This document shows, in pieces, positions 27,146 to 41,162 of a stretch of 64,000 bases of DNA. Numbering within the stretch: position 1 is the stretch's first letter; each line of letters begins with the position of its first letter. The notes under the pieces were generated by a model, which worked only from the letters and a program-made list of their open reading frames with translations, did not search any database and had not been told where the DNA came from. The stretch lies in the NCBI GenBank assembly GCA_016916535.1, contig CP070276.1, positions 2,294,001 through 2,358,000 on the forward strand, read 5' to 3'. The DNA is from Dysgonomonadaceae bacterium zrk40. GTDB lineage: Bacteria; Bacteroidota; Bacteroidia; Bacteroidales; Dysgonomonadaceae. Made by a program: the position numbers and the translations under genes.

Positions 27146-27177
27146 TTTGCAAATAGAACATATGTTCATTACATTTG
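27146..27177 (+). promoter_or_regulatory. Promoter with palindromic operator, start of the NifX/MinD operon
   Basis: TTTG (27146-27149), 20 bases, TACATTTG (27170-27177) is an exact Bacteroidota promoter. The palindrome GAACATATGTTC (27156-27167) fills the spacer. The same core, GAACA-N2-TGTTC, recurs in a longer palindrome at 38161-38186 in front of the opposite operon. The architecture resembles ArsR/SmtB operators. Confidence 0.75.
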
Positions 27178-27243
27178 CTGCGTGAAACAGATAGATTGCC
27201 AATGTTGACGATCTCATGAATCAATCAGGAATAAAAACATCCT

Positions 27244-27567
27244 ATGAAAGTAGCCATTACATCATCCGGCAAAGAGCTGACAGCCCTCCCGGATAAGCGC
27301 TTCGGACGCTGCAACTGTTTTGTCATTTATGACACCGATAACGAATCGGTGGAAGTTGTAGATAACCCCAATAGGGATCACAACGAGGGAGCGGGGCCTG
27401 CCGCAATGCAGCTGATTGCCTCGAAACGAGCCGGGAAGATAATCACCGGCCATCTGGGGGACAAGGCTGCATCGGTTGCGAAACAGCTCGGAATAGAGAT
27501 GGATCCGATCGATGACAACCTAAGGAGTGTGGAAGAGGTGATTCAGATGATCAGACGTAACAACTAA
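27244..27567 (+). CDS. NifX/NafY-fold (dinitrogenase iron-molybdenum cofactor biosynthesis superfamily) protein
   Basis: A 107-residue single-domain protein of the NifX/NifB-C-terminal/ORP fold: MKVAITSSGKELTALPDKRFGRCNCFVIYD, VVDNPNRDHNEGAGPAAMQLIASK and GKIITGHLGDKAASVAKQLG. In this superfamily the members bind metal-sulfur clusters or carry cofactor precursors; those of non-diazotrophs are mostly uncharacterised, apart from the Mo-Cu orange protein of Desulfovibrio. RCNC at about 22-25 supplies a potential Cys pair. No nitrogenase genes are visible here. First gene of the tightly packed plus-strand operon. Confidence 0.88.
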   Translation: MKVAITSSGKELTALPDKRFGRCNCFVIYDTDNESVEVVDNPNRDHNEGAGPAAMQLIASKRAGKIITGHLGDKAASVAKQLGIEMDPIDDNLRSVEEVIQMIRRNN

Positions 27568-27590
27568 ACAAAAAACAAAAGGAGATTATT

Positions 27591-27842
27591 ATGCCAGGAA
27601 TGAACAGGAGAGGCCCCGAAGGAGAGGGCCCGATGAGTGGAAGAGGACGGGGACGTTGTAACCCGGTGAACAGAGAGTCCAACAACAGTGATGCTCCAGC
27701 AGGTAGCGGGATGAATGCTCCTTTCCGGCAGGGTGCCGGCAGGGGTATGGGTCAAGGTGCCGGCAAAGGTATGGGCCAGGGACAAGGACAAGGCGAGAGA
27801 ATGAGGAGAAGAGAGGGAACCGGTAGAAGACCAATGGGATGA
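27591..27842 (+). CDS. Small Gly/Arg-rich protein, DUF5320-like N-terminus
   Basis: An 83-residue low-complexity protein. The N-terminal pattern (GPEGEGPMSGRGRGRCN) matches the GPxGxGPxTGRxxGxC start of DUF5320-type proteins, small proteins commonly found beside NifX-family and MinD genes in anaerobes. The remainder is Gly/Met/Gln/Arg repeats (GMGQGAGKGMGQGQGQG). A good ribosome site (AGGAGA) precedes the ATG. The stop overlaps the next start (ATGA). A related N-terminus occurs in the opposite operon at 37025-37264. Function unknown. Confidence 0.75.
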   Translation: MPGMNRRGPEGEGPMSGRGRGRCNPVNRESNNSDAPAGSGMNAPFRQGAGRGMGQGAGKGMGQGQGQGERMRRREGTGRRPMG

Positions 27843-28177
27843 AGCAGGTGATTGCAATACCCCTCGAAGAGGGAAGACTTTGTCAGCACTTTGGCCATTG
27901 TCAGCAGTTTGCCATCATCGAAACGGAGGATGGAGCCATACAGAACGAAGCATTAGTGACTCCTCCTCCGCATGAACCGGGATTGTTGCCTGCTTGGCTC
28001 TCGGAGAGAGGTGTCACGGAGGTGATTGCGGCCGGGATCGGACAAAAAGCCATACGTCTGTTCGAAAAACAACAAATCAGGGTACACATAGGTGCTGAGT
28101 ATAAGAGCCCGCGGGAGTTGGTTAGTGATTACTTTCAGCAGTCACTGCTCACCGGACTCAATGCCTGTGATCACTAG
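27839..28177 (+). CDS. NifX/ORP-fold protein, second copy
   Basis: A 112-residue second member of the NifX superfamily: MKQVIAIPLEEGRLCQHFGHCQQFAIIE (with LCQHFGHC, a Cys/His-rich loop typical of the group), PPHEPGLLPAWLSERGVTEVIAAGIGQKA and FEKQQIRVHIGA. The C-QHFGHC loop is the usual predicted metal or cluster site. It overlaps its neighbours at both ends (4 bases upstream, 17 bases with the DUF89 gene), so all three are co-translated. It is the better match of the two to the orange-protein type. Confidence 0.87.
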   Translation: MKQVIAIPLEEGRLCQHFGHCQQFAIIETEDGAIQNEALVTPPPHEPGLLPAWLSERGVTEVIAAGIGQKAIRLFEKQQIRVHIGAEYKSPRELVSDYFQQSLLTGLNACDH

Positions 28178-29060
28178 AAGGGTAAGTTTGGTGGAAGCCG
28201 ATTACAGATGTTATTTTTGTTTTGCTCGCACCTTCGAGCGTTTGTTGGAGAAGCACAAGCTTACGGTAGAGGAAAAGAAAGCACTTGCCATTGAGATGTT
28301 CTCCCACTTTTATAACGGCAATACCGGGTTTTCTGTTCCTGTTCTCTCTAGAGAGCTTTACCGTCTTTTCAGGGAGAAAAGCGGAGTGGTTGATCCTTAC
28401 CGGCGAATCAAGTATGAGAGCAACGAGCGCCTCATCGGTGAGTATGCCTCCTTCAGGGAGAAGATTGACCAATCGGATGATCCCTTCGAAACAGCATTGC
28501 GATTGGCAGTTGCAGGGAATATCATTGATTACGGGGTAAGTGACCATCATGATCTGAAAGAGACGATGTCGAAAGTCCTTGAGAGTCCTTTCGCAATTAA
28601 TGATGTGGAACGCCTCAGACGGCGGTTGGCTGAAGCCAAGACGGTCCTCTATCTAGGCGATAATGCCGGCGAGATTGTTTTTGACAAATTGTTTATCGAA
28701 ACCTTTCGTCACCCTAATATATGGTATGCCGTGCGAGGAGCACCTGTGATCAACGATGCCACCCGGAGAGATGCCGCCCAGGTAAAGATGGAAGAGGTGG
28801 CACAGGTGATTGACAACGGTTACGATGCTCCCTCCACCTTGCCGGAGTACTGTTCGCCAGCCTTTCAGCAACTATACAATGATGCGGATCTGGTGATCTC
28901 AAAAGGTCAGGGCAATCTGGAGGGGTTGATCGATGCCCCCAGGGGTGATATTTACTTCCTGTTGATGGTGAAGTGCGAGGTGATTGCTGACAGGCTCGGA
29001 GTAACAAAAGGTAGTTTTGTCTGTGCGGAGAATAACCCGAGAAAGGTTTATACAGGATGA
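28161..29060 (+). CDS. DUF89 (ARMT1-like) family protein
   Basis: A 299-residue protein of the DUF89/damage-control phosphatase family, members of which are metal-dependent phosphatases acting on phosphometabolites. Seen: DYRCYFCFARTFERLLEKH at the N-terminus, LYLGDNAGEIVFDKLFIE (the metal-binding GDNAGE), RGAPVINDATRRDA, and NDADLVISKGQGNLEGL with the conserved Lys-Gly. I chose ATG 28161 (MPVITRR), not the earlier ATG at 28092, because the earlier part is antiphase to the NifX gene. Substrate unknown; DUF89 genes next to NifX/MinD genes recur in anaerobes as far as I know. Confidence 0.85.
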   Translation: MPVITRRVSLVEADYRCYFCFARTFERLLEKHKLTVEEKKALAIEMFSHFYNGNTGFSVPVLSRELYRLFREKSGVVDPYRRIKYESNERLIGEYASFREKIDQSDDPFETALRLAVAGNIIDYGVSDHHDLKETMSKVLESPFAINDVERLRRRLAEAKTVLYLGDNAGEIVFDKLFIETFRHPNIWYAVRGAPVINDATRRDAAQVKMEEVAQVIDNGYDAPSTLPEYCSPAFQQLYNDADLVISKGQGNLEGLIDAPRGDIYFLLMVKCEVIADRLGVTKGSFVCAENNPRKVYTG

Positions 29061-29914
29061 AGATTGCGATAGCCAGTGGTAAGGGAGGTACCGGTAAGAC
29101 ATTTGTTTCAACCAACCTCTTATGGGTAGCAGCGCAGAAGGGTATCGATTGTTTGCTGGCCGATTGTGATGCAGAAGAACCTAACGTGGCAGAGTTCCTT
29201 GCCGGTGAGGAGGACCGGGTTGTGGAGGTCTACCAACTTGTGCCGGTGATTGACCCGGGGAAGTGCACCTTCTTCGGGAAATGTTACGAATACTGCAGTT
29301 ACAATGCCATCCTCTATCTACCCGAGAGGAAAATGATTCAGGTGCTTCCCGATCTCTGTCACGACTGTGGTGCATGCAGCTATGCCTGTCAGGCGGGAGC
29401 GATCACCGAACATCCCAAGCTCTTGGGCAGGGTGAAGCATGCTACATATGGTGCCGGTCAGCAGTTGGTCGAAGGTCGTGCCGAGGTGGGGGTCTACTCC
29501 CCCGTGCCGGTCATCACCCGTGCCATCCATGAGGCCGGAGAAAGGGAATTAGTACTTTTGGACTCACCTCCCGGCATCTCATGTCCCTTTATTGCAACCG
29601 TCGACAGGGCCGACTATGTGGTGCTGGTCACTGAGCCCACGCCATTCGGACTGCATGACCTGCAGCTCTCGGCAGCCACCGTCCGGCAGCTCGGTAAACC
29701 TTTTGGTGTGGTGGTCAACAGAGCCGGACTGGGCAACAATGAAATATACCGGTGGATGGAGCAGGAGTCGATTCCCCTGTTGCTGAAGATCCCTTTCGAC
29801 CGTGAAGTGGCACGCATCTATGCCGAGGGAGGGCTGCCTGCAGCTGTTGATGGCTCCTATCGGGAGATGTTCAGCCTTCTGCTTACACAAATCGTAGAAC
29901 AGCATATCTCATGA
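29057..29914 (+). CDS. MinD/ParA-type P-loop ATPase with ferredoxin domain, one cluster degenerate
   Basis: A 285-residue ATPase: deviant Walker A ASGKGGTGKTFVST, LLADCDAEEPN, and Walker B-like LVLLDSPPGISCP. Inserted at about 62-115 is a two-cluster ferredoxin module. The second cluster motif CHDCGACSYACQ is complete. The first reads CTFFGKCYEYC, with Phe73 where CxxCGxC would have Cys, so it has only three of four ligands. This type (COG1149) resembles the paired MinD ATPases of the Desulfovibrio orange-protein complex. It is followed by a paralogue, with a 4-base overlap. Probably involved in assembling or loading a metal-sulfur cofactor. Confidence 0.88.
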   Translation: MKIAIASGKGGTGKTFVSTNLLWVAAQKGIDCLLADCDAEEPNVAEFLAGEEDRVVEVYQLVPVIDPGKCTFFGKCYEYCSYNAILYLPERKMIQVLPDLCHDCGACSYACQAGAITEHPKLLGRVKHATYGAGQQLVEGRAEVGVYSPVPVITRAIHEAGERELVLLDSPPGISCPFIATVDRADYVVLVTEPTPFGLHDLQLSAATVRQLGKPFGVVVNRAGLGNNEIYRWMEQESIPLLLKIPFDREVARIYAEGGLPAAVDGSYREMFSLLLTQIVEQHIS

Positions 29915-30780
29915 GACAGATTGTAATCATCAGCGGAAAGGGAGGGACAGGCAAAACAAGCCTGAGCGCAGCACTTGCAACCATGGGTGAACAGTTGATG
30001 GTGGCCGATTGTGATGTGGATGCGGCTAACCTTCATCTGTTACTGGAGCCGACAGATCACTCCACTCACCCCTTTTCCACTGGTTCCAAAGCGGTAATCG
30101 ACCAGCAGCTATGTACACAATGTGGGGCCTGCATGGATGCCTGTCGCTTTGATGCGATCCGGTATCACGAAGATCGCTACACCATCTCTGAAACATCCTG
30201 TGACGGATGTCGTTTATGCATGCGCATCTGTCCGGCCGACGCAATCAGTATGATTGAAAGCAATGGCAGCTACTGGACGACCGGCACCTTCCGCAACGGT
30301 TGGATGGTGAATGCCAGGCTGGCGCCAGGAGAGGAGAACTCCGGCAAGCTTGTAAATGTGGTGCGTGAGCAGTCTCGTCAACTGTCGGAGCGGATGGGGT
30401 TGGAGACCATTCTGATTGATGGCCCTCCAGGAACCGGCTGTCCCGCCATCTCAGCTATGAGCGGTACTGATTTGGCACTGTTGGTTACTGAGCCGAGTCG
30501 CTCCGGTTTTCATGACCTGAGGAGGGTGAAACAGTTGGCCGATGGGTTCGGTATTCCCTCTGTTGTAGTGATCAATAAATATGATCTGAATGAGCAAGTG
30601 GCGTCCGAAATCGCTACCTGGTGCCGTAACAAGAACCTCCCGCTTATCGGGAGGATTCCTTTCGAACCGGCAGTGGTGGAATCTATGCTGCAATGCCGTA
30701 CGGTGGTTGAGTGGGCTCCCCGGTCGGCGGCAGCCGGTGAGATCGCAGCCATCCATCGGCATATTTTTCAATCGAAGTGA
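29911..30780 (+). CDS. MinD/ParA-type P-loop ATPase with ferredoxin domain, paralogue
   Basis: A 289-residue paralogue of the preceding ATPase. Walker A IISGKGGTGKTSLSA, VADCDVDAANLH, and ILIDGPPGTGCPAIS. Both ferredoxin motifs are intact here: CTQCGACMDACRFDAI and CDGCRLCMRICPADAI (about 66-110). The two ATPases probably form a heterodimer that binds two or more 4Fe-4S clusters at the interface. Transcribed with the NifX and DUF89 genes. Confidence 0.9.
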   Translation: MRQIVIISGKGGTGKTSLSAALATMGEQLMVADCDVDAANLHLLLEPTDHSTHPFSTGSKAVIDQQLCTQCGACMDACRFDAIRYHEDRYTISETSCDGCRLCMRICPADAISMIESNGSYWTTGTFRNGWMVNARLAPGEENSGKLVNVVREQSRQLSERMGLETILIDGPPGTGCPAISAMSGTDLALLVTEPSRSGFHDLRRVKQLADGFGIPSVVVINKYDLNEQVASEIATWCRNKNLPLIGRIPFEPAVVESMLQCRTVVEWAPRSAAAGEIAAIHRHIFQSK

Positions 30781-30805
30781 AAGAACCATTAAAAAATATG
30801 AAGCG

Positions 30806-31741
30806 ATGATTAGTTTTGGCCCCGTACCCTCCAGAAGACTGGGACAAAGCCTTGGGATCAACAACATCCCGGGGGATAAGATCTGTACCTATGCATGCAT
30901 CTACTGTCAGGTGGGTGCCACACGTCATTACACCCTCGAAAGGGCATCATATTACAACCCGGAGCAGATCCTCGAAGCGGTGGAAGAGCACTTGGGTAAG
31001 TTAAAGGCAATGCCTGATTATCTTACATTTGTACCGAACGGTGAACCCACACTTGATATCCACCTGAAAGAGTCGATTCGCCTGTTAATGCAGAGCGGTA
31101 TTCCGATTGCTGTGATCACCAATGTATCACTACTGGGTGATGCAGCGGTGCGTGATGCCCTCTCGCTGGCCGACTGGGTTTCAGTGAAGGTGGATGCCAA
31201 CGATGAGGCTGTATGGAAGAAGATCAACAGACCCCATCCCAAGCTCACCTTTGAGGGTTACAAGGAGGGTCTCCTGACTTTTGCCTCATCTTACAAGGGA
31301 ATCCTGGCAACTGAAACCCTGATGGTGGATGGGGTCAACGATGGAGCTGAGCTGTTACAGCACAACGCCTCACTGATTGCAACGATCAATCCCTCCAGGG
31401 CTTATCTCTCCATTCCCACGCGGCCCCCTGCAATGCGGAGCGTGAAGAAACCGGATGAGGAAGCCATCAACAGGGCTTACCAGGTCTACACTGATGCCGG
31501 ACTGCACTGCGAGATGCTGCTCGGCTTCGAAGGCAGTGATACCGGTTTCACCGGCGATGCCAGGGAGGATATCCTTAATATGAGTGCTGTACATCCCATC
31601 CGGGAGGAAACCATGGGAGAGATTCTGCGCAAGAACCGAGCGGAGAGCAGTCTGCCCGATCAGTTGGTCCGTGAGAAAGAGATCAGAGAGGTGCTCTATC
31701 AGGATAATAAATTTTGGATCCGTAACTTTACAAAAAGATGA
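30806..31741 (+). CDS. Radical SAM protein (COG0731-like)
   Basis: A 311-residue radical SAM enzyme with the cluster motif CTYACIYC (CX3CX2C) near residue 31 and a preceding FGPVPSRRLGQSLGINNIPG that is characteristic of the COG0731 group. FVPNGEPTLD is the GGE-like SAM-binding region. I chose ATG 30806; the longer open frame from 30590 only shadows the ATPase gene. Reaction unknown; proteins of this group are often annotated as FeS oxidoreductases. It overlaps the deformylase start by 4 bases. Confidence 0.87.
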   Translation: MISFGPVPSRRLGQSLGINNIPGDKICTYACIYCQVGATRHYTLERASYYNPEQILEAVEEHLGKLKAMPDYLTFVPNGEPTLDIHLKESIRLLMQSGIPIAVITNVSLLGDAAVRDALSLADWVSVKVDANDEAVWKKINRPHPKLTFEGYKEGLLTFASSYKGILATETLMVDGVNDGAELLQHNASLIATINPSRAYLSIPTRPPAMRSVKKPDEEAINRAYQVYTDAGLHCEMLLGFEGSDTGFTGDAREDILNMSAVHPIREETMGEILRKNRAESSLPDQLVREKEIREVLYQDNKFWIRNFTKR

Positions 31742-32259
31742 TTGTGCCGATAGTGATATACGGTGCTCCCGTATTGCGTCAAAGCGCCTTTGACATCCAT
31801 CAGGAGGATCTACCGGACCAGATCAGTGGGAACCTGTTCGATACCCTCAAGAGAGCTGAGGGTATTGGGCTTGCAGCTCCGCAGATTGGTCTCACAAAAA
31901 GGATATTTGTGATTGATACCACCCCGCTTGTCGATGATGAAGGGGAATTCAAGCCGCTGGAGAAGGTCTATCTGAATCCCCGCATATTACATTCTGATGA
32001 TACGCTCTCTTCCTATAACGAGGGTTGTCTCAGCATCCCGGGCATTTTCCGCGAGCTGAACCGCCCTGAGAAGATTCACGTGACCTACCAGAACCTCGCC
32101 TTTGCGACTATAGAGGAGGAGTTAAGCGGATTGGAGTCCCGTATCTTCCAGCATGAGTATGATCATCTCGATGGCATCCTTTTTATTGACCGGTTGTCCG
32201 GCCTTCAAAAACGATTGATACAGGGTAAACTGAACAAAATTAGAAAGAAAAGAAGATGA
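31738..32259 (+). CDS. def: Peptide deformylase
   Basis: A 173-residue metalloenzyme that removes formyl groups from new N-terminal Met. All three motifs are present: GIGLAAPQIG, EGCLSIP (Cys metal ligand) and the helix QHEYDHLDGILFID (two His ligands and catalytic Glu). Length is as usual. The 4-base overlaps with the radical SAM gene before and the Mrp gene after place it inside the cofactor-type operon. It could be either the housekeeping copy or an additional one; the rest of the genome would decide. Confidence 0.94.
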   Translation: MIVPIVIYGAPVLRQSAFDIHQEDLPDQISGNLFDTLKRAEGIGLAAPQIGLTKRIFVIDTTPLVDDEGEFKPLEKVYLNPRILHSDDTLSSYNEGCLSIPGIFRELNRPEKIHVTYQNLAFATIEEELSGLESRIFQHEYDHLDGILFIDRLSGLQKRLIQGKLNKIRKKRR

Positions 32260-33080
32260 ATGAACAATGTAACACTGCCAAAAAGCCGTTCGAAAAAACG
32301 AGGCTGCCAAATATAAAAAATATTCTTATCGTTGCTTCGGGTAAAGGGGGAGTAGGGAAGTCGACCGTGGCTGCCGGCCTGGCACTCTCTCTGGCCAGAG
32401 AGGGGTATGCAACTGGCCTGCTGGATGCCGATATTCATGGTCCCTCGGTACCCACTCTCTTCCACCTGAACAACCAACGGCCACTATCGATGGAGAAAGA
32501 GGGGAAGACATGGATTGAACCCTTTGATCGGTATGGCATCAAGGTGATCTCGATTGGTTTTTTTATCGATTCCTCCCAGTCACTTCTTTGGCGAGGCCCT
32601 ATGGTGTCGAATACACTCAAGCAATTGCTCAACGATACCGACTGGGGAGAACTGGATTATCTGGTGATTGACACCCCGCCCGGAACAGGTGATGTCCACC
32701 TGACCCTGCTACAGTCTTATGAGATCTCCGGTGCCGTGGTGGTTACCACTCCACAGACCATTGCACTGGATGATGTGATCAAGGCAATCGGTATGTTCAA
32801 TAACAAAAACGTCTCTGTGCCGGTGCTGGGCATCGTGGAGAACATGTCCTGGTTCACCCCTGTGCAACATCCCGACGAGAAATACTTCCTCTTTGGACAG
32901 GGGGGTGGTGAGAAGCTGTCACAACAATTTCATCTGCCCCTGATCGCACAGATCCCCATGAATGAGCAGATCAGACAAAACTGTGATGAGGGCTCGCTTG
33001 ACAATCTCTTTCAGGATGAGCAGATCGCACATTCACTCTCAGGTATCGTGAACGCGGTGCTGGCGTACCGTGATGCGTAA
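32256..33080 (+). CDS. mrp: Mrp/NBP35 family FeS cluster carrier ATPase
   Basis: A 274-residue P-loop ATPase: NILIVASGKGGVGKSTVAAG, GLLDADIHGPSVPTLF, LVIDTPPGTGDVHLTL and TTPQTIALDDVIKAIGMF. The N-terminal MIP18-like domain found in many bacterial Mrp proteins is absent, so it is the short type also seen in Orp-like gene sets. The Cys pair near the C-terminus that binds a bridging cluster in ApbC/Nbp35 is not evident (a single Cys at about 245). It overlaps both neighbours. Confidence 0.88.
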   Translation: MNEQCNTAKKPFEKTRLPNIKNILIVASGKGGVGKSTVAAGLALSLAREGYATGLLDADIHGPSVPTLFHLNNQRPLSMEKEGKTWIEPFDRYGIKVISIGFFIDSSQSLLWRGPMVSNTLKQLLNDTDWGELDYLVIDTPPGTGDVHLTLLQSYEISGAVVVTTPQTIALDDVIKAIGMFNNKNVSVPVLGIVENMSWFTPVQHPDEKYFLFGQGGGEKLSQQFHLPLIAQIPMNEQIRQNCDEGSLDNLFQDEQIAHSLSGIVNAVLAYRDA

Positions 33081-33639
33081 ACAGAGAGCACTCGGTCACC
33101 TTTGTCGCACCATCAAAGCGTGTTGTCGCTGCCCCCTGCATGAATCGACAGAGCAGGCTCTCTGTGGGGAAGGCAACGCCGATGCCTCTCTCTTCTTTAT
33201 TGCCCAGGCACCGGGTGAGACTGAGGAAAGAGTGGGGCGTATGTTTATGGGGCCAACCGGTGTTGTTGTTGATCAACTGTTTCAATCTGTTCATCTCTCG
33301 CGGGATGAGGTCTACATGACCAACCTGATCAAGTGCAGACTCCCCGGCAACCGAAAGCCGAAAAGGGAGGAGATTGAGCGCTGCAGCTTCTATCTCGACC
33401 GGGAGATTGAGATTGTGAGACCCCGTTTGCTTATTCCGATGGGTTATTACGCCACTTGTTACCTGCTGGAGCGCTACGGGTTAACCCATACCCCTGCGAA
33501 GGAGCAGATAGGCAGTTTGTATGTTTCCGGCTCTTTTCTGATTTACCCGGTGAGACATCCCTCCGCACTGCTCCATAACCCATCGTTGAGAGATGGGATG
33601 TTTAAGGATTTTGAGAGAATACCCCATCTGAGTGAGTGA
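33073..33639 (+). CDS. Uracil-DNA glycosylase family protein (family 4-like), copy 1
   Basis: A 188-residue FeS-type uracil-DNA glycosylase-like protein. N-terminal CRCPLHESTEQALCGEG, the active-site loop FIAQAPGETEERVGRMFMG, Cys in TNLIKCRLPGNRKPKREEIERC, and the C-terminal HPSALLHNP. Family 4 enzymes excise uracil and carry a 4Fe-4S cluster. Here the first Cys pair is CRC with spacing unlike the usual CxxC, and GEAPG is QAPGE. ATG 33073 is preferred; GTG 33070 is the alternative. Last gene of the plus-strand operon. A second, broken relative lies in the opposite operon. Confidence 0.82.
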   Translation: MRKQRALGHLCRTIKACCRCPLHESTEQALCGEGNADASLFFIAQAPGETEERVGRMFMGPTGVVVDQLFQSVHLSRDEVYMTNLIKCRLPGNRKPKREEIERCSFYLDREIEIVRPRLLIPMGYYATCYLLERYGLTHTPAKEQIGSLYVSGSFLIYPVRHPSALLHNPSLRDGMFKDFERIPHLSE

Positions 33640-33708
33640 CCACTGAACTAGCCGGATCGCATCTCCCATTAGAGCGGAGGTGTGGAACAACAACCCTCTG
33701 CCGTTGCT

Positions 33709-34440
33709 CTAACCGAACAGCTTTGAGAATACGATAAAGAGTGCCAGGGCTACACCTCCCAGGAAGGCCACACCGGAGTGCTTTTTCTCCTCACCTCTTG
33801 CCTCGGGGAGAAGGTGCGAAGCAGCGATATAGATTAATACCCCCGCAACAAAGCCCAGCATTAACCCCAGGTGACTATCGTTGAGACTTTTTACAAGCGG
33901 GTATGCTACGAAGGCACCCAATGGTGTGGTGAGTCCTGCCACTAGGAATGCATAGAACATGGAACGTTTCTCTTTCACACCCCCCTTGAGAAAGAGGGTG
34001 TAGGTGATGATCCCCTCGGCAAACTCATGAATCACCAGTCCTGTTGCTGCCAGAAAACCGGCCAGGATGCTGATGCTGAAGGTGACGGTGTAGATGATGC
34101 CATCGATGAAGGAGTGGATGGCTATCCCTTCGGCGGCAACGATGCCGAAGGCGAGCACCTCTGTCTTGGTGATCTTCTTGATCAGTCCGTTCGAGAAAAA
34201 CATAAACAGGAAACCGAGCAGTGCCGTGAATCCTGCAAAGAAATTCTTCTCTATGGCCTGGGGGAGCGCCAGCATCAAGGGGGTGGCAATCAGCACGCCG
34301 GCAGCAAAGCAGATGAAGTAGGGTTTGGATTGTATGGCCCAATTCCGGTACCTGTAGAGGATGAAAATTCCCAACCCGTTGATGATGGCTGCAAGGATAG
34401 CAAAGAGGGCGATCCAGAGAAATGTATTGTTGTCTGACAT
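33709..34440 (-). CDS. ZIP family metal transporter
   Basis: A 243-residue inner-membrane transporter with about eight helices. The metal-binding motifs of the ZIP family are clear: HSFIDGIIYT in helix IV, HEFAEGIITY in helix V and ASHLLPEARG near the C-terminus. It imports zinc or other divalent metals. Last gene of the minus-strand operon that faces the NifX/MinD operon. A hairpin (TTAGAGC against GCTCTAA) overlaps its stop codon between the two convergent operons. Metal specificity cannot be read. Confidence 0.9.
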   Translation of the reverse strand: MSDNNTFLWIALFAILAAIINGLGIFILYRYRNWAIQSKPYFICFAAGVLIATPLMLALPQAIEKNFFAGFTALLGFLFMFFSNGLIKKITKTEVLAFGIVAAEGIAIHSFIDGIIYTVTFSISILAGFLAATGLVIHEFAEGIITYTLFLKGGVKEKRSMFYAFLVAGLTTPLGAFVAYPLVKSLNDSHLGLMLGFVAGVLIYIAASHLLPEARGEEKKHSGVAFLGGVALALFIVFSKLFG

Positions 34441-34469
34441 GTTCCCAGTAAATCTCGTTCCAATGTCTG

Positions 34470-35147
34470 TTATTCTACTTTTTCTCTCTCACCAAACAGG
34501 GCGGTTCCGATACGGATGATGTTGGCACCCTCGTCAATGGCGATCTGATAACTGTTGCTCATTCCCATGGAGAGATAGCGCATCTCAACACACGGGATCT
34601 CAGCCTGTCTGATCTCGTCGAAGATTCTTTTTGTGATCCGGTAGTAGGGCCTGGCATCCTCCGGGTCTCCAAAGCGCGGTCCCATGGTCATCAACCCCAC
34701 AATCGACAGGTGTGACAGATGATTGATCCGACGGATCAGTCCAATCGCGTTTTCCGGTAGCACACCGCTTTTATTCGACTCCTTGCCGCTGTTGATCTCA
34801 ATCAATACCGGCATCACCTTGCCCACGGCAGCCGACTGTTTGTCTACCTCCAGTGCCAGTCGCTCCGAATCGATGGTCTCAATCATGTTGAACAGCTCGA
34901 CCGCTTTTTTTACTTTGTTACGCTGCAGGTGACCAATCATATGCCAGGGCAGTGTTCCTTCTACAAGTGGACGCATGCGCTCTGCCTCCTGGATGTAGTT
35001 GTATCCGATGGCATGAATACCGGCAGTCACCGCAGCATTTACCTCGTCGGCATTTCTTGTTTTTGCGGCTGCCACCAGCTCTACTCCCGGGGGGAGCGAC
35101 TTCAATATCTCCGTTATGTTCCTCTTTATCCTTTCTGAATCTGTCAT
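34470..35147 (-). CDS. YggS family pyridoxal phosphate enzyme
   Basis: A 225-residue PLP-homeostasis protein with the alanine-racemase N-terminal barrel fold. LVAAAKTR carries the Schiff-base Lys (about 29). WHMIGHLQRNKVKKAVELF, LIEINSGKESNKSG, GLMTMGP, and LSMGMSNSYQIAIDEGANIIRIGTALFG follow. The usual GENYVQE reads GYNYIQEA, an unusual Glu-to-Tyr change. The start overlaps the stop of the VOC gene (ATGA). Role in this operon unclear. Confidence 0.92.
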   Translation of the reverse strand: MTDSERIKRNITEILKSLPPGVELVAAAKTRNADEVNAAVTAGIHAIGYNYIQEAERMRPLVEGTLPWHMIGHLQRNKVKKAVELFNMIETIDSERLALEVDKQSAAVGKVMPVLIEINSGKESNKSGVLPENAIGLIRRINHLSHLSIVGLMTMGPRFGDPEDARPYYRITKRIFDEIRQAEIPCVEMRYLSMGMSNSYQIAIDEGANIIRIGTALFGEREKVE

Positions 35148-35530
35148 GATTCAATCTCCTTTCTCTTTATCTCAAACATGTTTCCGCTTTTGTCCCAGAT
35201 GAAATGGGTGACACGGTTGGGACCTCTTTTGATCCATCGCCTGTATCCCTGTTGATGGGCATGGTCCGACACCTCTTCCGGGTTGTCATACTCCAGACAG
35301 AGGTGGGTAAAACGACCTTTTTCTCCCTCGGGGTCAATGAAGATCTCCAGTTTCAAATCCTGATACTCCAGCATATAGACTTCTGTTTTCCTGTCGGTGG
35401 CGAAGATGGAGTGGAGCACCTCTTCTGAATCGAGGGTGAACTGCTTCAGCCGCCTGAAATGCAAAACGGCTTCGTAAAATCTTCCAATCTCTGCAGGTTC
35501 AATAATGGTTAATCCCACGTGATGTAACAT
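35144..35530 (-). CDS. VOC (glyoxalase/bleomycin-resistance fold) family protein
   Basis: A 128-residue protein of the vicinal oxygen chelate superfamily: MLHHVGLTIIEPAEIGRFYE, LEIFIDPEGEKGRFTHLCLEY and FIWDKSGNMFEIKRKE give the two beta-alpha-beta-beta-beta modules with candidate metal ligands His4, Glu, His and Glu. Substrate unknown. It lies between the broken glycosylase gene and YggS, with tight spacing on both sides. Confidence 0.8.
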   Translation of the reverse strand: MLHHVGLTIIEPAEIGRFYEAVLHFRRLKQFTLDSEEVLHSIFATDRKTEVYMLEYQDLKLEIFIDPEGEKGRFTHLCLEYDNPEEVSDHAHQQGYRRWIKRGPNRVTHFIWDKSGNMFEIKRKEIES

Positions 35531-35538
35531 TGTTTTTT

Positions 35539-36158
35539 TTATGATTCGTACTTTGTTAGATTGGTATTCAATGGAATATGGGGAGTGTAATGATTAGGAT
35601 CAACCAGCTCCCGGTACTTATAAATCACCTTCTTGAAATCATCCCAGGTATCCCTTTTTAGTGCCGGGTTTCTTAACAGTGCAGAGGGGTGATAGACTGG
35701 CATCATTAACCGATTGTCCTGTTTGATCCAGTTGCCCCTGACCCGTGTGATGCGGTAATCGGTACCTGCCATATATCTCAGTGCTGTTGCACCCAGCAGG
35801 ATTACGATTCTGGGATCTACCAGCTCCAGCTGTTGGTGCAGCCACGGTAGGCAGGCGGCACTCTCTTGTGTGGTGGGGGGACGATTCCCCGGGGCCTGCA
35901 GCGGACAATGTTGCTGATGAAGAGATGCTCCATCCTGTTGAATCCACAGGCTGTGAAGATCTTGTCCAACAGGATCCCCGAAGGGCCTATGAAAGGTCTC
36001 CCTACACGGTCTTCATCTCTTCCCGGTGCTTCACCGATGATGAAGATGGGAGCATGATGATTTCCCTCACCGAAAATGAGGTGGTTCCGTGAATGCCACA
36101 AGTCGCATCTTCTACACTGTTCCATCTCCTCTCGCAACTGCTCCATCGTATGGCTCAT
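35539..36158 (-). pseudogene. Uracil-DNA glycosylase family protein, copy 2, frameshifted
   Basis: A second FeS-type uracil-DNA glycosylase-like gene. From ATG 36158: CRRCDLWHSRNHLIFGEG, GEAPGRDEDRVGRPFIGPSG, ISNIVRCRP. The frame then breaks at the CCCCGGGG tract (35887-35894). Adding one base there gives RCRPPGNRPPTTQESAACLP and continues LVDPRIVILLGATALRYMAG to HPSALLRNP. Restored, the protein would have about 205 residues. The motifs fit family 4 better than copy 1 does. A one-base loss at a homopolymer could be a real mutation or a sequencing error. Confidence 0.8.
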
Positions 36159-36177
36159 TTTGATTTTTTCCTGTTTG

Positions 36178-36693
36178 TTAATATTCAATTCCCTCCCGAG
36201 CCTCAATGCCCTGACGGTAATAATGTTTCACCTCTCTCATCTCAGTCACAAGGTCGGCCACCTCAATCAGCTCCTCCGGTGCATAACGACCAGTAACCAC
36301 CACTTCACAACCGGCTGCTCTCTTCTTCAATATTTCGATTAACTCACTCACAGTGAATAGATCATAATATATGGCGATGGTTGCCTCATCCAGAATCACC
36401 AAATCATACTGCCCAGAGGTGAGTACTTCAGACACCACTGCCAGTCCCTCGCGTGCAGCATCTACATCCTTCTCCGTGGGTTTTTCCACGATGAAACAAC
36501 CCCTGCCGAACTGCCGGATTGTGATTTGGGGCAGATGCTCCCTAACAGCTGTAATCTCGGAGTAGTTTCTTCCTTTCACGAACTGTGCAATGTAGATACG
36601 CATCCCGGCACCGGCTGCACGAAGAGCCAGGCCGAAGGCTGCCGTGCTCTTTCCCTTGCCGTTCCCTGTGTAGATATGCAGATATCCTCTCAT
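36178..36693 (-). CDS. cobO: Corrinoid (cob(I)yrinic acid a,c-diamide) adenosyltransferase
   Basis: A 171-residue BtuR/CobO-type enzyme that transfers the adenosyl group of ATP to reduced corrinoid to form adenosylcobalamin. P-loop YTGNGKGKSTAAFGLALRA, AQFVKGRNYSE, YDLVILDEATIAIYYDLF and VVVTGRYAPEELIEVADLVTEMREVKHYY match the family. ATG 36693 overlaps the preceding stop (ATGA), which decides the start over ATG 36705. It suggests that the operon has a corrinoid link, but no other B12 gene is near. Confidence 0.93.
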   Translation of the reverse strand: MRGYLHIYTGNGKGKSTAAFGLALRAAGAGMRIYIAQFVKGRNYSEITAVREHLPQITIRQFGRGCFIVEKPTEKDVDAAREGLAVVSEVLTSGQYDLVILDEATIAIYYDLFTVSELIEILKKRAAGCEVVVTGRYAPEELIEVADLVTEMREVKHYYRQGIEAREGIEY

Positions 36694-36935
36694 CTCACTT
36701 TGCATGCATTGGATATTTTCAGTACGAAGACTGATGGATAGCGCACCATCAGTGGAGCAAACGTATCGGTGAGGGTCTGCATCACCAGATGATACTCACC
36801 GGCTATAAAGGTGCTCATACTGCCTGTTTCCACCTGTATCATCTGACAGCGTGACACTCTCTCCAAAAAATCCTTCACCGGGGTGGCATAATCGCCGGTA
36901 AGGGCACAATAACTGATTTCAATGGTGATCTGCAT
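36690..36935 (-). CDS. YkoF/thiamine-binding-fold small protein
   Basis: An 81-residue protein beginning MQITIEISYCALTGDYATPV, with MSTFIAGEYHLVM and VFVLKISNAC. The layout (MSTxIxGEY and the C-terminal KISNAC) resembles the ferredoxin-like YkoF/MTH1187 thiamine-binding family. A longer open frame from 37145 exists, but ATG 36935 has a good ribosome site (GAAGGA) and starts the conserved part. It is coupled to the adenosyltransferase by ATGA. Binding of thiamine or of another ligand is unproven. Confidence 0.72.
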   Translation of the reverse strand: MQITIEISYCALTGDYATPVKDFLERVSRCQMIQVETGSMSTFIAGEYHLVMQTLTDTFAPLMVRYPSVFVLKISNACKVR

Positions 36936-37131
36936 GGTTCCTTCTCTTTTGTACGATGGTAGCAATAAATGCCGGATGAGTATTACCTTTGTCACGTTGC
37001 TCATCAAGCAGCTCAAAATTGCTGTCATAATAGACAGCGTAGCGAAACTGTGGGGTCCCCAAGAATGTGAGGTGGTTCCTGATCTCTGCCGGTGTGTAAA
37101 GATGTGCCTTGCTGAAGGTGGGAGAGTTTTA
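36925..37131 (-). pseudogene. Orphan reading frame without start, probably the displaced 3' part of a broken gene
   Basis: About 68 codons open from just after a TAA at 37132-37134 to a TGA at 36925, with no ATG or clear GTG start. The translation is protein-like: HLYTPAEIRNHLTFLGTPQF, YAVYYDSNFELLDEQRDKGN and FIATIVQKRRNH. It shares no frame with the Gly-rich gene that begins at 37264, whose own frame turns into non-protein-like sequence over the same DNA. I do not recognise the family. A frameshifted or fused remnant is the simplest reading. Confidence 0.4.
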
Positions 37132-37264
37132 CTTTTGTCGCCCAATCTCTGTTGCGATACAATCCATCTTCATATCCGGGTGCATCATATCCCGAACAAA
37201 ATCCTCTTGCTCTTCCGGTTCTGGGACCTTGTCCCAGCGGTCCGGTACGATCTCCTGATGGCAT
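37025..37264 (-). CDS. DUF5320-like small protein, C-terminus doubtful
   Basis: The frame from ATG 37264 begins MPSGDRTGPLGQGPRTGRAR then GFCSGYDAPGYEDG, a clear DUF5320-type Gly/Arg-rich start with one Cys. After about residue 42 it continues as RDWATKVKLSHLQQ and unpatterned sequence, 79 residues in total, while another frame over that part looks coding. The annotated C-terminus may therefore be an artefact of a frameshift near 37130. A shorter relative lies at 27591 in the facing operon. Function unknown. Confidence 0.55.
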   Translation of the reverse strand: MPSGDRTGPLGQGPRTGRARGFCSGYDAPGYEDGLYRNRDWATKVKLSHLQQGTSLHTGRDQEPPHILGDPTVSLRCLL

Positions 37265-37348
37265 AATGCTAAATTTTTAAGTGAAACAATTGATAAGTTG
37301 ATAACGGCAAAAAGCCTGAATTGAAGTAAACCTTCTTTCATTAATAAA

Positions 37349-38128
37349 TTAAAAGGTGTAGACGTCTCCTGTTTTAACCGATCGAGTCTTGAAACTTTCC
37401 GTAAAAGCCACAAGGGCAGGCAATGCAGTACAATGAGAGGGGATGACATGTTCCACCTTGTTTTTTTTGAGGTACTGAATGGTCTCGATGGTTTGCCGGT
37501 CACGCTTCTTCAGATGAAAACCACCCATAATCCCGAAGATTCTTTGCTCACCGGTGCTTTTTTTTGCATGTTCCAGGGTGTTTACCACCCCGGCATGCCC
37601 GCAGCCTGTAATGACAAACAGCCCTTTATCTGTCTGCAGGGCGACAGCACTGTCGTCTGCAACAAAATCGGGTGTTCCGTCTTCGAAGGAGAAAGAGGTC
37701 TGTTGCGATTCAAAATTGGTGATGCGGGGAATCTCCCCCAGAAACAGAATGGAATCACTGACACGGTAGGGAGCTTTACTGGTTATGAGATCAAATTTTT
37801 CAACGATCTCATCATGGCTGTTCTTCAGACCGATGTAGGTGTGATCGACTGTTCTGTATCGCTTCACAAAACAGCCCGGATGGCAGACCAGCCTCCCACC
37901 TGAGAGATGTCTCAGTCCGTTTCCGTGATCAAAGTGACCATGACTCAGAATGATCAGATCTCTATCCTCCGGATCAATCCCCATCAGTGAAGCATTTCTC
38001 AGAAAAAGATCACTCTGTCCCGTATCAAATAGGATCTTTGTGCCTTCATGCTCTATAAAATAGGAGAGTCCATGTTCTGCAGCGGTGTTTCCTCCCGGGT
38101 AATTGTCGGTAAGTATCGATACTTTCAT
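37349..38128 (-). CDS. MBL-fold metallo-hydrolase (COG1237-like)
   Basis: A 259-residue metallo-beta-lactamase-fold hydrolase. The two-metal motif is LSHGHFDHGNGL (HxHxDH), with KILFDTGQSDLFLRNA before it, GCGHAGVVNTLEHAK after it and GGFHL and HCTALPALVAF near the C-terminus. The pattern fits the COG1237 group (dihydropterin-ribofuranosyl-aminobenzene phosphate synthase-like), which is often found near NifX-family genes. It is the first gene of the minus-strand operon and is preceded directly by the perfect palindrome at 38161-38186. Confidence 0.88.
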   Translation of the reverse strand: MKVSILTDNYPGGNTAAEHGLSYFIEHEGTKILFDTGQSDLFLRNASLMGIDPEDRDLIILSHGHFDHGNGLRHLSGGRLVCHPGCFVKRYRTVDHTYIGLKNSHDEIVEKFDLITSKAPYRVSDSILFLGEIPRITNFESQQTSFSFEDGTPDFVADDSAVALQTDKGLFVITGCGHAGVVNTLEHAKKSTGEQRIFGIMGGFHLKKRDRQTIETIQYLKKNKVEHVIPSHCTALPALVAFTESFKTRSVKTGDVYTF

Positions 38129-38140
38129 CTCTTTTTTCTA

Positions 38141-38186
38141 CAAATATAGACATTATAGTTTTAAAATGAACAAATGTTCATTTTAA
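38141..38186 (-). promoter_or_regulatory. Promoter with 12-2-12 palindromic operator
   Basis: Minus-strand -7 box TATATTTG (38141-38148) and -33 TTTG (38171-38174), spacer 22. A perfect palindrome, TTAAAATGAACA then AA then its complement (38161-38186), covers the -33 box. The 12-2-12 form and TGAACA core are those of ArsR/SmtB-family operators. The core matches the operator at 27156-27167. Confidence 0.75.
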
Positions 38187-38214: not shown

Positions 38215-38775
38215 TCAGCTTTCTCTCGTCATTCTTGCCCACTTGAAATATCCGAACACAGAGATCACGGTGTAGATGCCAAAAAGCAGCGTGGTGGGAT
38301 AGAGCCCTTTCCAGAGGTAGAGTCCGCAGGAAATAAGGTTGACCAGGAACCACACCCACCACTGCTCCGCATGTTTCTGTGCCAGCATCCACATACCAAC
38401 GATGCTCAGGGCGGTGGTGAGGCTGTCACCCCCGGCCACAGGGCTGTCTGTGTAGCGGGTGAGGAGCAGGTAGATGAATCCGAAGAGTAGCATGGTGACC
38501 AGCGTGAGGGGTAGGATCAGACGACGCGGGGTATGGATGATGGCAGGCGTATCTCCTTCCGTATGACTTCTTTTCCAACGGATCCAGCCATAGATGCTGG
38601 CGAAGAAGTAATAGATGTTGATCCCCATATCTGCATAGAACCTGCTCTGGAAGAAGATCCAGATATAAACCACCGGCATCAGTACCCCCACCGGCCAGAG
38701 CCATCTGTTGGCTTTGTATTCGAGATAGAGATAGAGCAGGCCGATCAGGGCACCGATGATTTCGATGGTTTGCAT
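38215..38775 (-). CDS. pnuC: PnuC family transporter, probably for thiamine (PnuT)
   Basis: A 186-residue inner-membrane protein with about seven helices and the PnuC pattern: IGALIGLLYLYLEYKANRWLWPVG, YIWIFFQSRFYADMGINIYYFFASIYGWIRW and EQWWVWFLVNLISCGLYLWKGLYPTTLLFGIY. PnuC proteins move vitamins by facilitated diffusion. The gene follows the TonB receptor by 23 bases behind a TPP riboswitch, so the substrate is most probably thiamine (the PnuT type known in Bacteroidota), not nicotinamide riboside. Confidence 0.92.
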   Translation of the reverse strand: MQTIEIIGALIGLLYLYLEYKANRWLWPVGVLMPVVYIWIFFQSRFYADMGINIYYFFASIYGWIRWKRSHTEGDTPAIIHTPRRLILPLTLVTMLLFGFIYLLLTRYTDSPVAGGDSLTTALSIVGMWMLAQKHAEQWWVWFLVNLISCGLYLWKGLYPTTLLFGIYTVISVFGYFKWARMTRES

Positions 38776-38798
38776 GTTATTGCTGGATCATTATTGAT

Positions 38799-41042
38799 TT
38801 AAAACGAAATAGTAAGCCGAGCCATGATGTTGCGCGTGGCTTGGGGATAATAACCAATCCAGTTGATGCTGCTGCCGTCAGCAAAGGTGTCGGTGGCTGC
38901 CCAGCCGTTGGCCACATATTCCTTGTTGAACAGGTTGTTCACGAACAATTGCAGGTTGATCACCCCCAGTTGGCTCTTCTGGAAGGTGTAGCCCGCCGAG
39001 AGGTTGCTCACGAAGTAGCCGTCAATCGACTTGGCATCGTCGGAGGTGTTGTCCATATATTGTTTGCTTACATACTTACCCAGCAGGTTCAGATAAAAAG
39101 CAGATGCCGGTTGCCAGGTAAGCCCCACGGTGCTCACAAGATCGGGTGAGAAGGAGATTTGTGTGGAACCATAATCCCTGCTGACCTGTCCCACCCACTC
39201 ATAATTGTCGGGGGTGTCATACTGGTCGAAGTACGCCGTGTAATCGCTGATTCTGTTGCGGCTGAAGGTGGCGTTGGCATCCAGCTGCAATTTTTCTGTC
39301 CAGAGAGGGAGGGATGCCTCCAGCTCAATGCCGGCACGATAGCTATCCTTCACGTTCTCCATCAGTTTGTAACCAATATCGGTCAGCTTACCGGTTTGCA
39401 CCATCTGGTTGTAGTAATCCATGTAGTAAAGGTTCACACCCAGTCTGGTGCCCTTGCTACTGTAACGGTACCCCAGCTCATAGTCTATCATGCGCTCCGG
39501 TCGGATCGGATTGACCGCTCCCCCCTTGATGCCATCCTTCAGGTCGGCACGCAGCGGCTCCCGTTGTCCCACCGCAGTTGAGGCATATAGATTGCTCGAC
39601 TGATTGAGCTGGTAGAACAGACCGGCTTTTGGGTTGAAGAAATTGTAATTAAAATCGCCGTTAAGCTCCATCATATCGTCGTCCATCCCGCTGAAGCGGT
39701 ATCCCACATGGCGATACTGCAAGTCACCGAACAGTGAGAGCCTTTCGTTAACCTGATACTCAACCTTGGAAAAAAGACTTACTTCCGATTTACGTCCTAC
39801 ATTGCGGTACCATTCATACTGCTCCGGGATGTTTTGGTTGTGCTTTACCCAGGGAAGGCGACCAAAGTGATCGCCGTCGTAGTAGCTGTAGAGCCCACCA
39901 ACATTGAACTTAAGGGCATCAATAACTTTCTCGATGCCCAGGCTCGCCACGTAGAAGTCGTTCTCCATCAGCTTGCGACGGATAAAGTCGGTACGATTGT
40001 GGGTTTCCTCACCGACGGTCTGGGGGTCCAGTCCGAAATCGGAGTATTTCCGATTGTAGCGATAGTTCTCGTAGTAACCATAACCATGGTTGTAACTGAG
40101 TCCCGCGTTGAGCGAGAGGGAGCGGCTCAGCTCCCTTGTGAAGGTAAGCTGAAGGATGTGTGAGTAGTAGTTGTCGGTCTCATTGTCGTAATAAAGACGG
40201 TTACCCGCATCATCATAGTATTCTCCGGCAGGGTTGTAGCGCCGTCCATATTCCGGATCCTGCATCTGCTCTTCCGAAACCCCTTCCCACGTGATGCCGG
40301 TATGCTGGATTCCCCTCAGGTAGCTGAGACGGAGCAGCTGATGCTCGCCATAGTGAGAAAGCACACCGTAGAAATTGGTGTGGTCTACCGTACCATTACG
40401 CACGTAACCCTCGCCCAGCACCCGTGAGAAACGGGCATCGAACGAGAGGCCTCCCTCGCTGATCCCGGTGCCGGCAGCGATTGAGGAGGAGTAAGTACCA
40501 TAGCTGCCCACGGCGGTGGATGCTTCACCGTAAGCATTGGAACGTGCACCGGCCGTCCTGAGTGAGATGCTGGCCCCGAAAGCGCCGGCACCGTTGGTGG
40601 AGGTGCCTACGCCGCGTTGTACCTGGATGCTCTGCAACGAGTTGGAGAGGTCGGGCAGGTTCACCCAGTAAACCTCCTGACTCTCCGGGTTATTGAGCGG
40701 CATTCCATTGAGCGTTACGTTGATGCGGGTGGCATCGGTGCCGCGGATCCGGAAAAAGGTGTTGCCTACACCCAGTCCGTCTTCGGTGAAGGCGACGAGT
40801 GAGGGAGTGGATTGCAGAATCGAGGGAATGTTGCGTGCCGCGTTCTCCCTGCGGATATCCGCAGCGGTGAGGTTGCTGTAAGTGACCGGTGTCTGTGAAC
40901 CGGCACGCGTGCCGGAGACAATCACCTCCTCCAGCCGGATGTTGTTGATCGTGTCGCCCGGCGTGGCATCTGCCTGCGCCGTTAGTTGAAAGAGAGTTGC
41001 TGAAAAGAGTGTCAGCAGAATTGAAAAGAAAACCTTTTTCAT
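38799..41042 (-). CDS. TonB-dependent outer-membrane receptor, probably for thiamine
   Basis: About 747 residues: signal peptide MKKVFFSILLTLFSATLF to LTAQA, a short TonB-box-like IRLEEVIVSGTRAG, a plug domain (NIPSILQSTPSLVAFTEDGL, FFRIRGTDATRINVTLNGMP, SLQSIQVQRGVGTSTNGAGA) and a 22-strand barrel ending in the aromatic NIMARLTISF. No N-terminal carboxypeptidase-like repeat, so it is not SusC-type. ATG 41042 is preferred over 41075 because it begins the signal peptide. The TPP riboswitch 120 bases upstream makes thiamine or its phosphates the likely substrate. Confidence 0.92.
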   Translation of the reverse strand: MKKVFFSILLTLFSATLFQLTAQADATPGDTINNIRLEEVIVSGTRAGSQTPVTYSNLTAADIRRENAARNIPSILQSTPSLVAFTEDGLGVGNTFFRIRGTDATRINVTLNGMPLNNPESQEVYWVNLPDLSNSLQSIQVQRGVGTSTNGAGAFGASISLRTAGARSNAYGEASTAVGSYGTYSSSIAAGTGISEGGLSFDARFSRVLGEGYVRNGTVDHTNFYGVLSHYGEHQLLRLSYLRGIQHTGITWEGVSEEQMQDPEYGRRYNPAGEYYDDAGNRLYYDNETDNYYSHILQLTFTRELSRSLSLNAGLSYNHGYGYYENYRYNRKYSDFGLDPQTVGEETHNRTDFIRRKLMENDFYVASLGIEKVIDALKFNVGGLYSYYDGDHFGRLPWVKHNQNIPEQYEWYRNVGRKSEVSLFSKVEYQVNERLSLFGDLQYRHVGYRFSGMDDDMMELNGDFNYNFFNPKAGLFYQLNQSSNLYASTAVGQREPLRADLKDGIKGGAVNPIRPERMIDYELGYRYSSKGTRLGVNLYYMDYYNQMVQTGKLTDIGYKLMENVKDSYRAGIELEASLPLWTEKLQLDANATFSRNRISDYTAYFDQYDTPDNYEWVGQVSRDYGSTQISFSPDLVSTVGLTWQPASAFYLNLLGKYVSKQYMDNTSDDAKSIDGYFVSNLSAGYTFQKSQLGVINLQLFVNNLFNKEYVANGWAATDTFADGSSINWIGYYPQATRNIMARLTISF

Positions 41043-41162
41043 TTTACCTGTGTTTTTTTGTGTTGAACAAATCATGTGACTTTGTTCAACGGTGTGAGTG
41101 AAATAAAAAAGGGGATTTATGAAAGATGGATACCTATGAAAGAGCCACCGGGATGTGTGCTG

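Follow-up and report, generated by a model that had tools for sequence, protein, structure and literature searches.

Two palindromes in the promoters of two convergent operons are, judging from sequence comparison, very probably the operators of a single repressor, the one clear DUF134 protein of the genome, by which ORP-like cofactor operons would be repressed. The operons lie in a stretch of 64,000 nucleotides (the window; G000:C1:2294001-2358000) of a Bacteroidales genome of 3,468,890 bases. The plus-strand run (27244-33639) contains 10 genes, and the minus-strand run (38128-33709) contains 8-9, a count that includes one short weak open reading frame (ORF) and one frameshifted gene; many of the proteins predicted for the two clusters are of the iron-sulfur or metal-cofactor type. 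Relatives retain the palindromes, which are rare in the genome, located in promoters and linked to DUF134 genes, and matched changes occur in the DUF134 proteins and the operator DNA. DUF134 is identified as the candidate regulator because of this linkage in position, together with its genome-wide co-occurrence with the palindrome and the matched protein-DNA changes.

Position, rarity and conservation of the two palindromes

Operator 1 (AGAACATATGTTCA, 27155-27168), which includes GAACATATGTTC at 27156-27167, occupies the 20-nucleotide spacer between the probable -33 element of the plus operon, TTTG (27146-27149, plus strand), and its probable -7 element, TACATTTG (27170-27177, plus strand), leaving 1 nucleotide between the operator and the -7 box. 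The core at 27155-27168 differs from TGAACANNTGTTCA in the outer left base. The operator, the -7 box and the spacing are all retained in two related loci, L013 and L016 (loci are cited here by such numbers). Operator 2 (38161-38186, with the core TGAACAAATGTTCA at 38167-38180) is a perfect 12-2-12 palindrome of 26 bases, TTAAAATGAACA-AA-TGTTCATTTTAA, which covers the -33 region of the minus operon and is kept in L013 and L025. It overlaps a TTTG located 22 nucleotides ahead of TATATTTG (38141-38148, minus strand), the probable -7 element as read from the sequence, which is separated from the operator core by 18 nucleotides. The two palindromes with their positions and promoter overlap, as well as the two gene runs, had been reported in a preliminary description of this DNA, and all were confirmed in the sequence.

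The exact core GAACA-N2-TGTTC was found four times in the genome, twice at these promoters and twice within unrelated genes (xseA and a cupin/carboxymuconolactone-type gene, identified from their translations), and a control with the core read backwards gave two matches. TGAACANNTGTTCA occurs only once in the whole genome, and a search of the same genome with wider spacings, ATGAACA-N0..20-TGTTCAT, gave one additional match, ATGAACATGTTCAT, inside a glycosyltransferase-like gene. Within the window, four cores at ≤1 mismatch were found against 2.5 expected, which is ordinary by raw count, and the case thus rests on the whole genome and on relatives. A regulon defined by sites of the own genome at ≤2 mismatches was rejected, since 204 such sites are too many.

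Searches with the radical SAM protein of the plus operon revealed that the closest named loci belong to metagenome-assembled genomes, namely a Bacteroidales bacterium (two fragments, 91-95% identity), a Porphyromonadaceae genome (87%) and a Proteiniphilum genome (84-86%). The Porphyromonadaceae contig, L013, keeps both sites (604 and 13748), and the Proteiniphilum contig, L016, keeps the plus-operon site (6330) and stops short of the other promoter; the remaining close loci, L014, L015 and L017, are fragments without either promoter. The metallo-beta-lactamase-fold hydrolase that heads the minus operon has matches at E 0.001 in 142 of 393 Bacteroidales genomes. Stretches of 17-20 kb were taken around 20 of the 29 best hydrolase loci outside the own genome (the others, many of them on short contigs, were omitted), and a site at ≤1 mismatch adjoins operon genes in 9 of the 20, with the gene order rearranged. 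The rarity of the core elsewhere in the genome and its retention in relatives, on which the preliminary description had made its proposal depend, thus left that part of it standing, and there is good support for control of both operons by one regulator. An operator-like site also occurs between the metallo-hydrolase and the following gene in L013 (12907), L054 (9176) and L055 (6559); it is absent from the window's own operon.

DUF134 genes and the shared palindrome

The DUF134 (UPF0251, PF02001) gene of the genome is located at G000:C1:1523222-1523635 (stop codon excluded) on the minus strand, 770 kb from the window, which fits the earlier statement that the repressor gene lies outside it. The gene encodes a protein of 138 amino acids with a helix-turn-helix resembling sigma-70 region 4 and two CxxC pairs. 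A search of the genome for PF02001 gave one match over the cut-off (E 4.9e-22) and a second under it (E 6.5e-4), in a sigma-factor-like ORF, and a Pfam search with the protein confirmed it as a clear member of the family (E 3.1e-22), to which no function has so far been assigned. The palindrome TGAACGTATGATCA is present at -71 to -58 of this gene. A pattern built from the three sites, WGAACRNATGWTCA, was matched in the 3.47 Mb by those sites and by one on contig C3, and by none in a reversed control; its added value lies in the scarcity of further matches. In four related loci (L056, L062, L071 and L073), a DUF134 gene is located directly behind the palindrome, among the same kinds of genes, and in L055 the palindrome comes after the DUF134 gene rather than before it, with the metallo-hydrolase on its other side.

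Two or three CxxC pairs were found within residues 91-160 of 25 of 31 DUF134 proteins. In one gene (L190 1573-2424, the same gene as in L102), DUF134 is fused to a NifX domain, as identified by Pfam (PF02001 and PF02579), and it is possible, from the domain arrangement, that the fused NifX domain acts as a built-in sensor. Similar fusions in one open frame, judged by length or by eye, were noted in L099, L276 and L277. A search of the PDB for a solved structure of a close DUF134 relative gave only two weak matches (E 0.036 and 0.083). In a whole-word literature search for DUF134, UPF0251 and COG1342, which for the most part covered papers available without subscription, neither a function nor an operator was found in the accessible text; of 5.39 million papers, 2 contain the name DUF134, 1 contains UPF0251 and 1 contains COG1342, and UPF0251 appears in its paper, in the part available, as a secondary mutation. 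A word-start match to DUF134 in a study on iron was discarded, since the family named there is DUF1349.

DUF134 matches were obtained in 206 of the 393 Bacteroidales genomes, 203 of them over the cut-off, and the promoters of 110 genes were surveyed, consisting of the own gene, the 30 top-ranking genes and 79 of another 80 taken in rank order (a few duplicates were skipped, and L148 was unparsed), so that the set is not a random sample. A motif-free search for palindromes in the 150 bp upstream ranked TGAAC-N4-GTTCA first, with 55 of the 110 genes; in ten shuffled sets, the most frequent palindrome reached at most 7 of 110. At ≤2 mismatches, TGAACANNTGTTCA was found upstream of 81 of 110 genes, compared with 1.5 expected from shuffles; within the genes it was found in 1 of 110, and in the far-upstream interval from -600 to -450 in 0 of 28. 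It is present in 18 of 29 representatives at <60% identity. The site is followed by TAnnTTTG in 74 of the 81 promoters, at exactly 1 nucleotide in 44, at 0 in 6 and at 9-11 in 17, and the 1-nucleotide offset of the plus operon is thus the one that recurs in 44 of the 81. Distances of 0-1 or 9-11 nucleotides place the site within or near the promoter boxes, which is the layout expected of a promoter-blocking repressor. It is rather unlikely that DUF134 binds these sites to activate transcription, or to serve as a sigma-like factor or a roadblock, a role that might be suggested by the weak match of its helix-turn-helix to sigma-70 region 4 (Pfam E 0.0004, under the cut-off). The sites fall mostly between the promoter boxes, at the distances from the -7 box given above, and a site in the promoter of the DUF134 gene itself is the usual layout of an autorepressor.

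The exact 16-mer ATGAACATATGTTCAT has 29 occurrences, distributed over 27 of the 393 Bacteroidales genomes, and its reversed control has none. Among these genomes, 26 of 27 have a DUF134 match, compared with 180 of the 366 others (p 3e-7); similarly, where a close metallo-hydrolase is present (E up to 1e-59), 40 of 47 genomes have such a match, compared with 166 of 346 others, the tallies of 26/27 and 40/47 being counted by eye from the match lists. When one locus per genome was examined (27 of the 29 sites), all 27 had, no more than 1.5 kb from the site, a gene for DUF134, NifX, DUF5320, a small zinc-ribbon protein or an ArsP_2 exporter that points away from it, the DUF5320 and zinc-ribbon labels being loose, as they come from short Gly- or Cys-rich queries with the low-complexity filter off. 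Such genes were found at none of 29 control loci, all from the own genome, with sites at 1-2 mismatches. The ArsP_2 family is described in Pfam as a 'putative 10TM heavy-metal exporter'; in L203, L206, L209 and L213, the exact 16-mer has ArsP_2 genes at a distance of up to 1.5 kb, and those of L203 and L213 read away from it. The ordinary window count at ≤1 mismatch and the numerous genome sites at ≤2 mismatches would fit a reading in which the palindromes are chance or general promoter ornament and the operons are not co-regulated. This is exceedingly improbable, as the exact sites are rare and conserved, which already contradicts it, and as all 27 loci examined for the exact 16-mer share these kinds of genes, which none of the 29 controls has.

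Among the 110 DUF134 proteins, residue six of the SRxTxxR recognition helix is T or S in 94 and A or G in the other 16, and matched changes in protein and operator DNA accompany this residue. No TGAGC half-site was found for 75 of 77 T/S proteins (both halves are TGAAC for 70), and at least one was found for all 16 A/G proteins. Of the 29 representatives at <60% identity, 24 could be scored for a site, and 18 of 18 T/S and 6 of 6 A/G proteins agree (Fisher p 7e-6). The helix of the own protein is SRPTLTR, in agreement with the TGAAC sites of the window. A group of eight shorter DUF134 proteins of 98-117 amino acids (L075, L083, L098, L117, L130, L145, L146 and L185) has SR[AQ]TFGR helices; TGAGCATATGCTTA or TGGGCATATGCTTA is located upstream of all eight genes, and NifX genes lie near those of L075, L083 and L098.

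The preliminary description had assigned the palindromes to a metal-sensing repressor of the ArsR/SmtB family. Inverted repeats of the 12-2-12 type are used by that family, and the accessible text of PMC8790569 lists AATACCTGAACA-GA-TGTTCAAGTATT among them; in what that text gives for operators such as that of AzuR, the geometry, the overlap with promoter boxes and the metal-related genes are the same as here, and a ZIP transporter gene is present in the minus operon. However, six of the seven PF01022 matches of the own genome have no site in the upstream 150 bp, where the closest sequences differ at 4 to 7 positions (the start was set at the first in-frame ATG for five of the seven genes). 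The seventh, L007, has TGTATATATGTTCA upstream with 2 mismatches, a match with a chance of about 0.9% per gene. The short ArsR proteins L006 and L007 have no homologue at E 1e-5 in 25 related operon loci. No linked ArsR gene was found among the matches of the own genome and these operon loci; the candidate regulator that repeatedly adjoins the operator is instead DUF134, with its sigma-70-region-4-like helix-turn-helix, and the operator base shifts with the DUF134 helix. The assignment to ArsR/SmtB is unsupported by these results and is considered very improbable. The ArsR-family gene of L007 (1384-1758, minus strand) precedes genes for a small membrane protein and a thioredoxin-like protein, and the half-sites in its promoter, TGAACAT and ATGTTCA, which lie 14 bp apart, are perhaps its own operator.

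The sequence GAAC-N4-GTTC also resembles the Gram-positive LexA box, and a uracil-DNA glycosylase gene is present in both operons, as might suit an SOS repressor of the LexA type. Binding by such a repressor is nevertheless extremely unlikely, since the remaining genes are mostly cofactor and metal genes and the site tracks DUF134 genes.

Several observations weigh against DUF134 as the common repressor. The site in its own promoter has 2 mismatches, and the -7 box of the minus operon lies 18 nucleotides from the operator, compared with the common 0-1 or 9-11. No site at ≤2 mismatches was found for 29 of the 110 surveyed DUF134 genes, of which 9 carry a TGAGC, TGGGC or CGAGC variant. Among the relative stretches, 10 of 20 have no site beside the operon genes, with L068 doubtful, and a clear site within 200 bp before the metallo-hydrolase was found in only 4 of 30 loci (the own included), with L043 doubtful. 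A DUF134 match is lacking in 7 of the 47 genomes with a close hydrolase and in one genome with the 16-mer, G199. The match between residue and base has exceptions in L156 and L171, and L276 has S yet TGAGC (TGAGCATTTGCTCA). On the phylogenetic tree, the residue class changes four times, and good branch support exists for only two of these changes; the two independent pairs are concordant in nearly all pairings, too few for significance. Outside Bacteroidales, 29 of 30 loci of the phylum show no clear shared site (29 of the 30 belong to one family, f136), and three archaeal loci have no recognisable site.

Proposed control, known systems and wider distribution

In the proposed mechanism, a DUF134 dimer would bind the interval between the -33 and -7 boxes, or the boxes themselves, and thereby exclude RNA polymerase, with binding, dimerisation and repression all predicted. 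The protein would repress its own gene as well as the plus and minus operons, and release would occur through a change at the Cys-rich tail, where a metal or an iron-sulfur cluster might be lost or acquired. The CxxC pairs, the NifX fusions and the target genes suggest that a metal or iron-sulfur cofactor is the signal.

The arrangement resembles that of the orp operons of Desulfovibrio vulgaris, in which, according to the accessible text of PMC6345978 and PMC3897727, two operons are switched together via shared palindromes and encode ferredoxin-MinD ATPases, Mrp and ORP/NifX-type domains. An Orp3/Orp4-like pair is present in the window, as two adjacent genes with CbiA and Fer4 domains. The D. 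vulgaris operons are divergent and, as stated in the available part of PMC3897727, are activated by the sigma-54-dependent regulator DVU2106 with IHF, whereas those described here are convergent, have boxes of the TAnnTTTG type and have a predicted DUF134 repressor. The MrpORP fusion is also absent, with Mrp and the ORP domain encoded by separate genes; the ORP-domain protein of the window scores 119.9 against the MrpORP model, the cut-off of which is 450. Control by DUF134, if true, would provide a function, an operator and a target list for an uncharacterised and widespread helix-turn-helix family, and a predicted regulator for Bacteroidales ORP-like operons, to which the sigma-54/DVU2106/IHF control of Desulfovibrio is not obviously applicable. 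The predicted helix-base pairing is testable at one residue and one base.

DUF134 is distributed over Bacteroidota, Clostridia, Negativicutes, a spirochaete, gammaproteobacterial plasmids and archaea. A wider generalisation, held tentatively and at somewhat less than even confidence, is that DUF134 may be a family of autoregulated repressors which gate metal-cluster assembly of the NifX/ORP type and heavy-metal export. Its members would bind a CATATG-centred palindrome with outer bases set by the recognition helix (TGAACATATGTTCA, TGAGCATATGCTTA, TTGACATATGTCAA, TGGCATATGCCA), and might sense a metal or an iron-sulfur/molybdenum cofactor via Cys pairs or a fused NifX domain.

Relatives of the own DUF134 protein were found in 189 plasmid records, of which 12 loci, two of them from Bacteroidales, were examined (L278, unparsed, and L283, in the wrong frame, were left out). 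DUF134 adjoins NifX in Salinivibrio, Citrobacter, Dongshaea and Peptoclostridium, and adjoins Mrp in Selenomonas. Palindromes were identified at the DUF134 loci of Roseburia and Selenomonas (TTGACATATGTCAA), Treponema (TGACAAATGTCA, two copies), Subdoligranulum and Peptoclostridium (TTGACATATGCCA) and Citrobacter (TGGCATATGCCA), the operators of Firmicutes, the spirochaete and gammaproteobacteria being read partly by eye; none was seen at the Salinivibrio locus. The sole phylum locus outside Bacteroidales with a site is L262 (TGAACATAAGTTCA). The search with the radical SAM protein gave nine loci, four of them distant and archaeal, and DUF134 is present in three of those four archaeal genomes. 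Many of the DUF134-bearing plasmids are from Enterobacterales, conjugative transfer is predicted for 114 of the 189 records, and in several of those examined DUF134 adjoins NifX.

Genes of the two operons

The plus operon begins with a NifX-like protein (27244-27567; PF02579, E 1.1e-14), followed by a DUF5320 protein (27591-27842; PF17253, domain match) and a second NifX-domain protein of the ORP type (27839-28177; PF02579), which matches the MrpORP model in its C-terminal ORP half (E 1.5e-34). The next gene encodes a DUF89/ARMT1-like phosphatase (28164-29060; PF01937), for which the start codon was the analyst's choice, and precedes the two Orp3/Orp4-like ferredoxin-MinD ATPases (29057-29914 and 29911-30780). 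The run continues with the radical SAM protein (30800-31741) and a peptide deformylase (31738-32259), both assigned by domain match, an Mrp/NBP35 iron-sulfur carrier ATPase (32256-33080; PF10609, E 4.2e-88), and a protein of the uracil-DNA glycosylase superfamily (33070-33639; domain match).

The minus operon is read from the metallo-beta-lactamase-fold hydrolase (37349-38128), a domain match for which relatives were found, through a second DUF5320 protein (37025-37276; domain match) to a short ORF (36690-36935) with weak similarity to thiamine-binding proteins (E 0.026, under the cut-off). These are followed by a BtuR/CobO corrinoid adenosyltransferase (36178-36705; domain match) and by a second uracil-DNA glycosylase (35539-36206), which is split over two reading frames, the two pieces having been searched separately. 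The split reflects a frameshift or a sequencing error, and the corresponding genes of L014 and L016 also match in more than one frame. The last three genes, all domain matches, encode a glyoxalase-like protein (35144-35530), a YggS-like pyridoxal-phosphate protein (34470-35147; PF01168) and the ZIP metal transporter (33709-34440; PF02535).

Just past operator 2, genes for a PnuC-type nicotinamide mononucleotide transporter and a TonB-dependent-receptor-like protein (38215-41075, minus strand) read in the same direction as the minus operon, and probably form a separate unit. Elsewhere in the assembly, 3-kb stretches of contigs C2 and C3 (L008, L009, L011 and L012) have 58.7-64.8% G+C, compared with 51.7% in the window, and these contigs may come from another organism than the window; L218, on contig C3, has 48.6% G+C.

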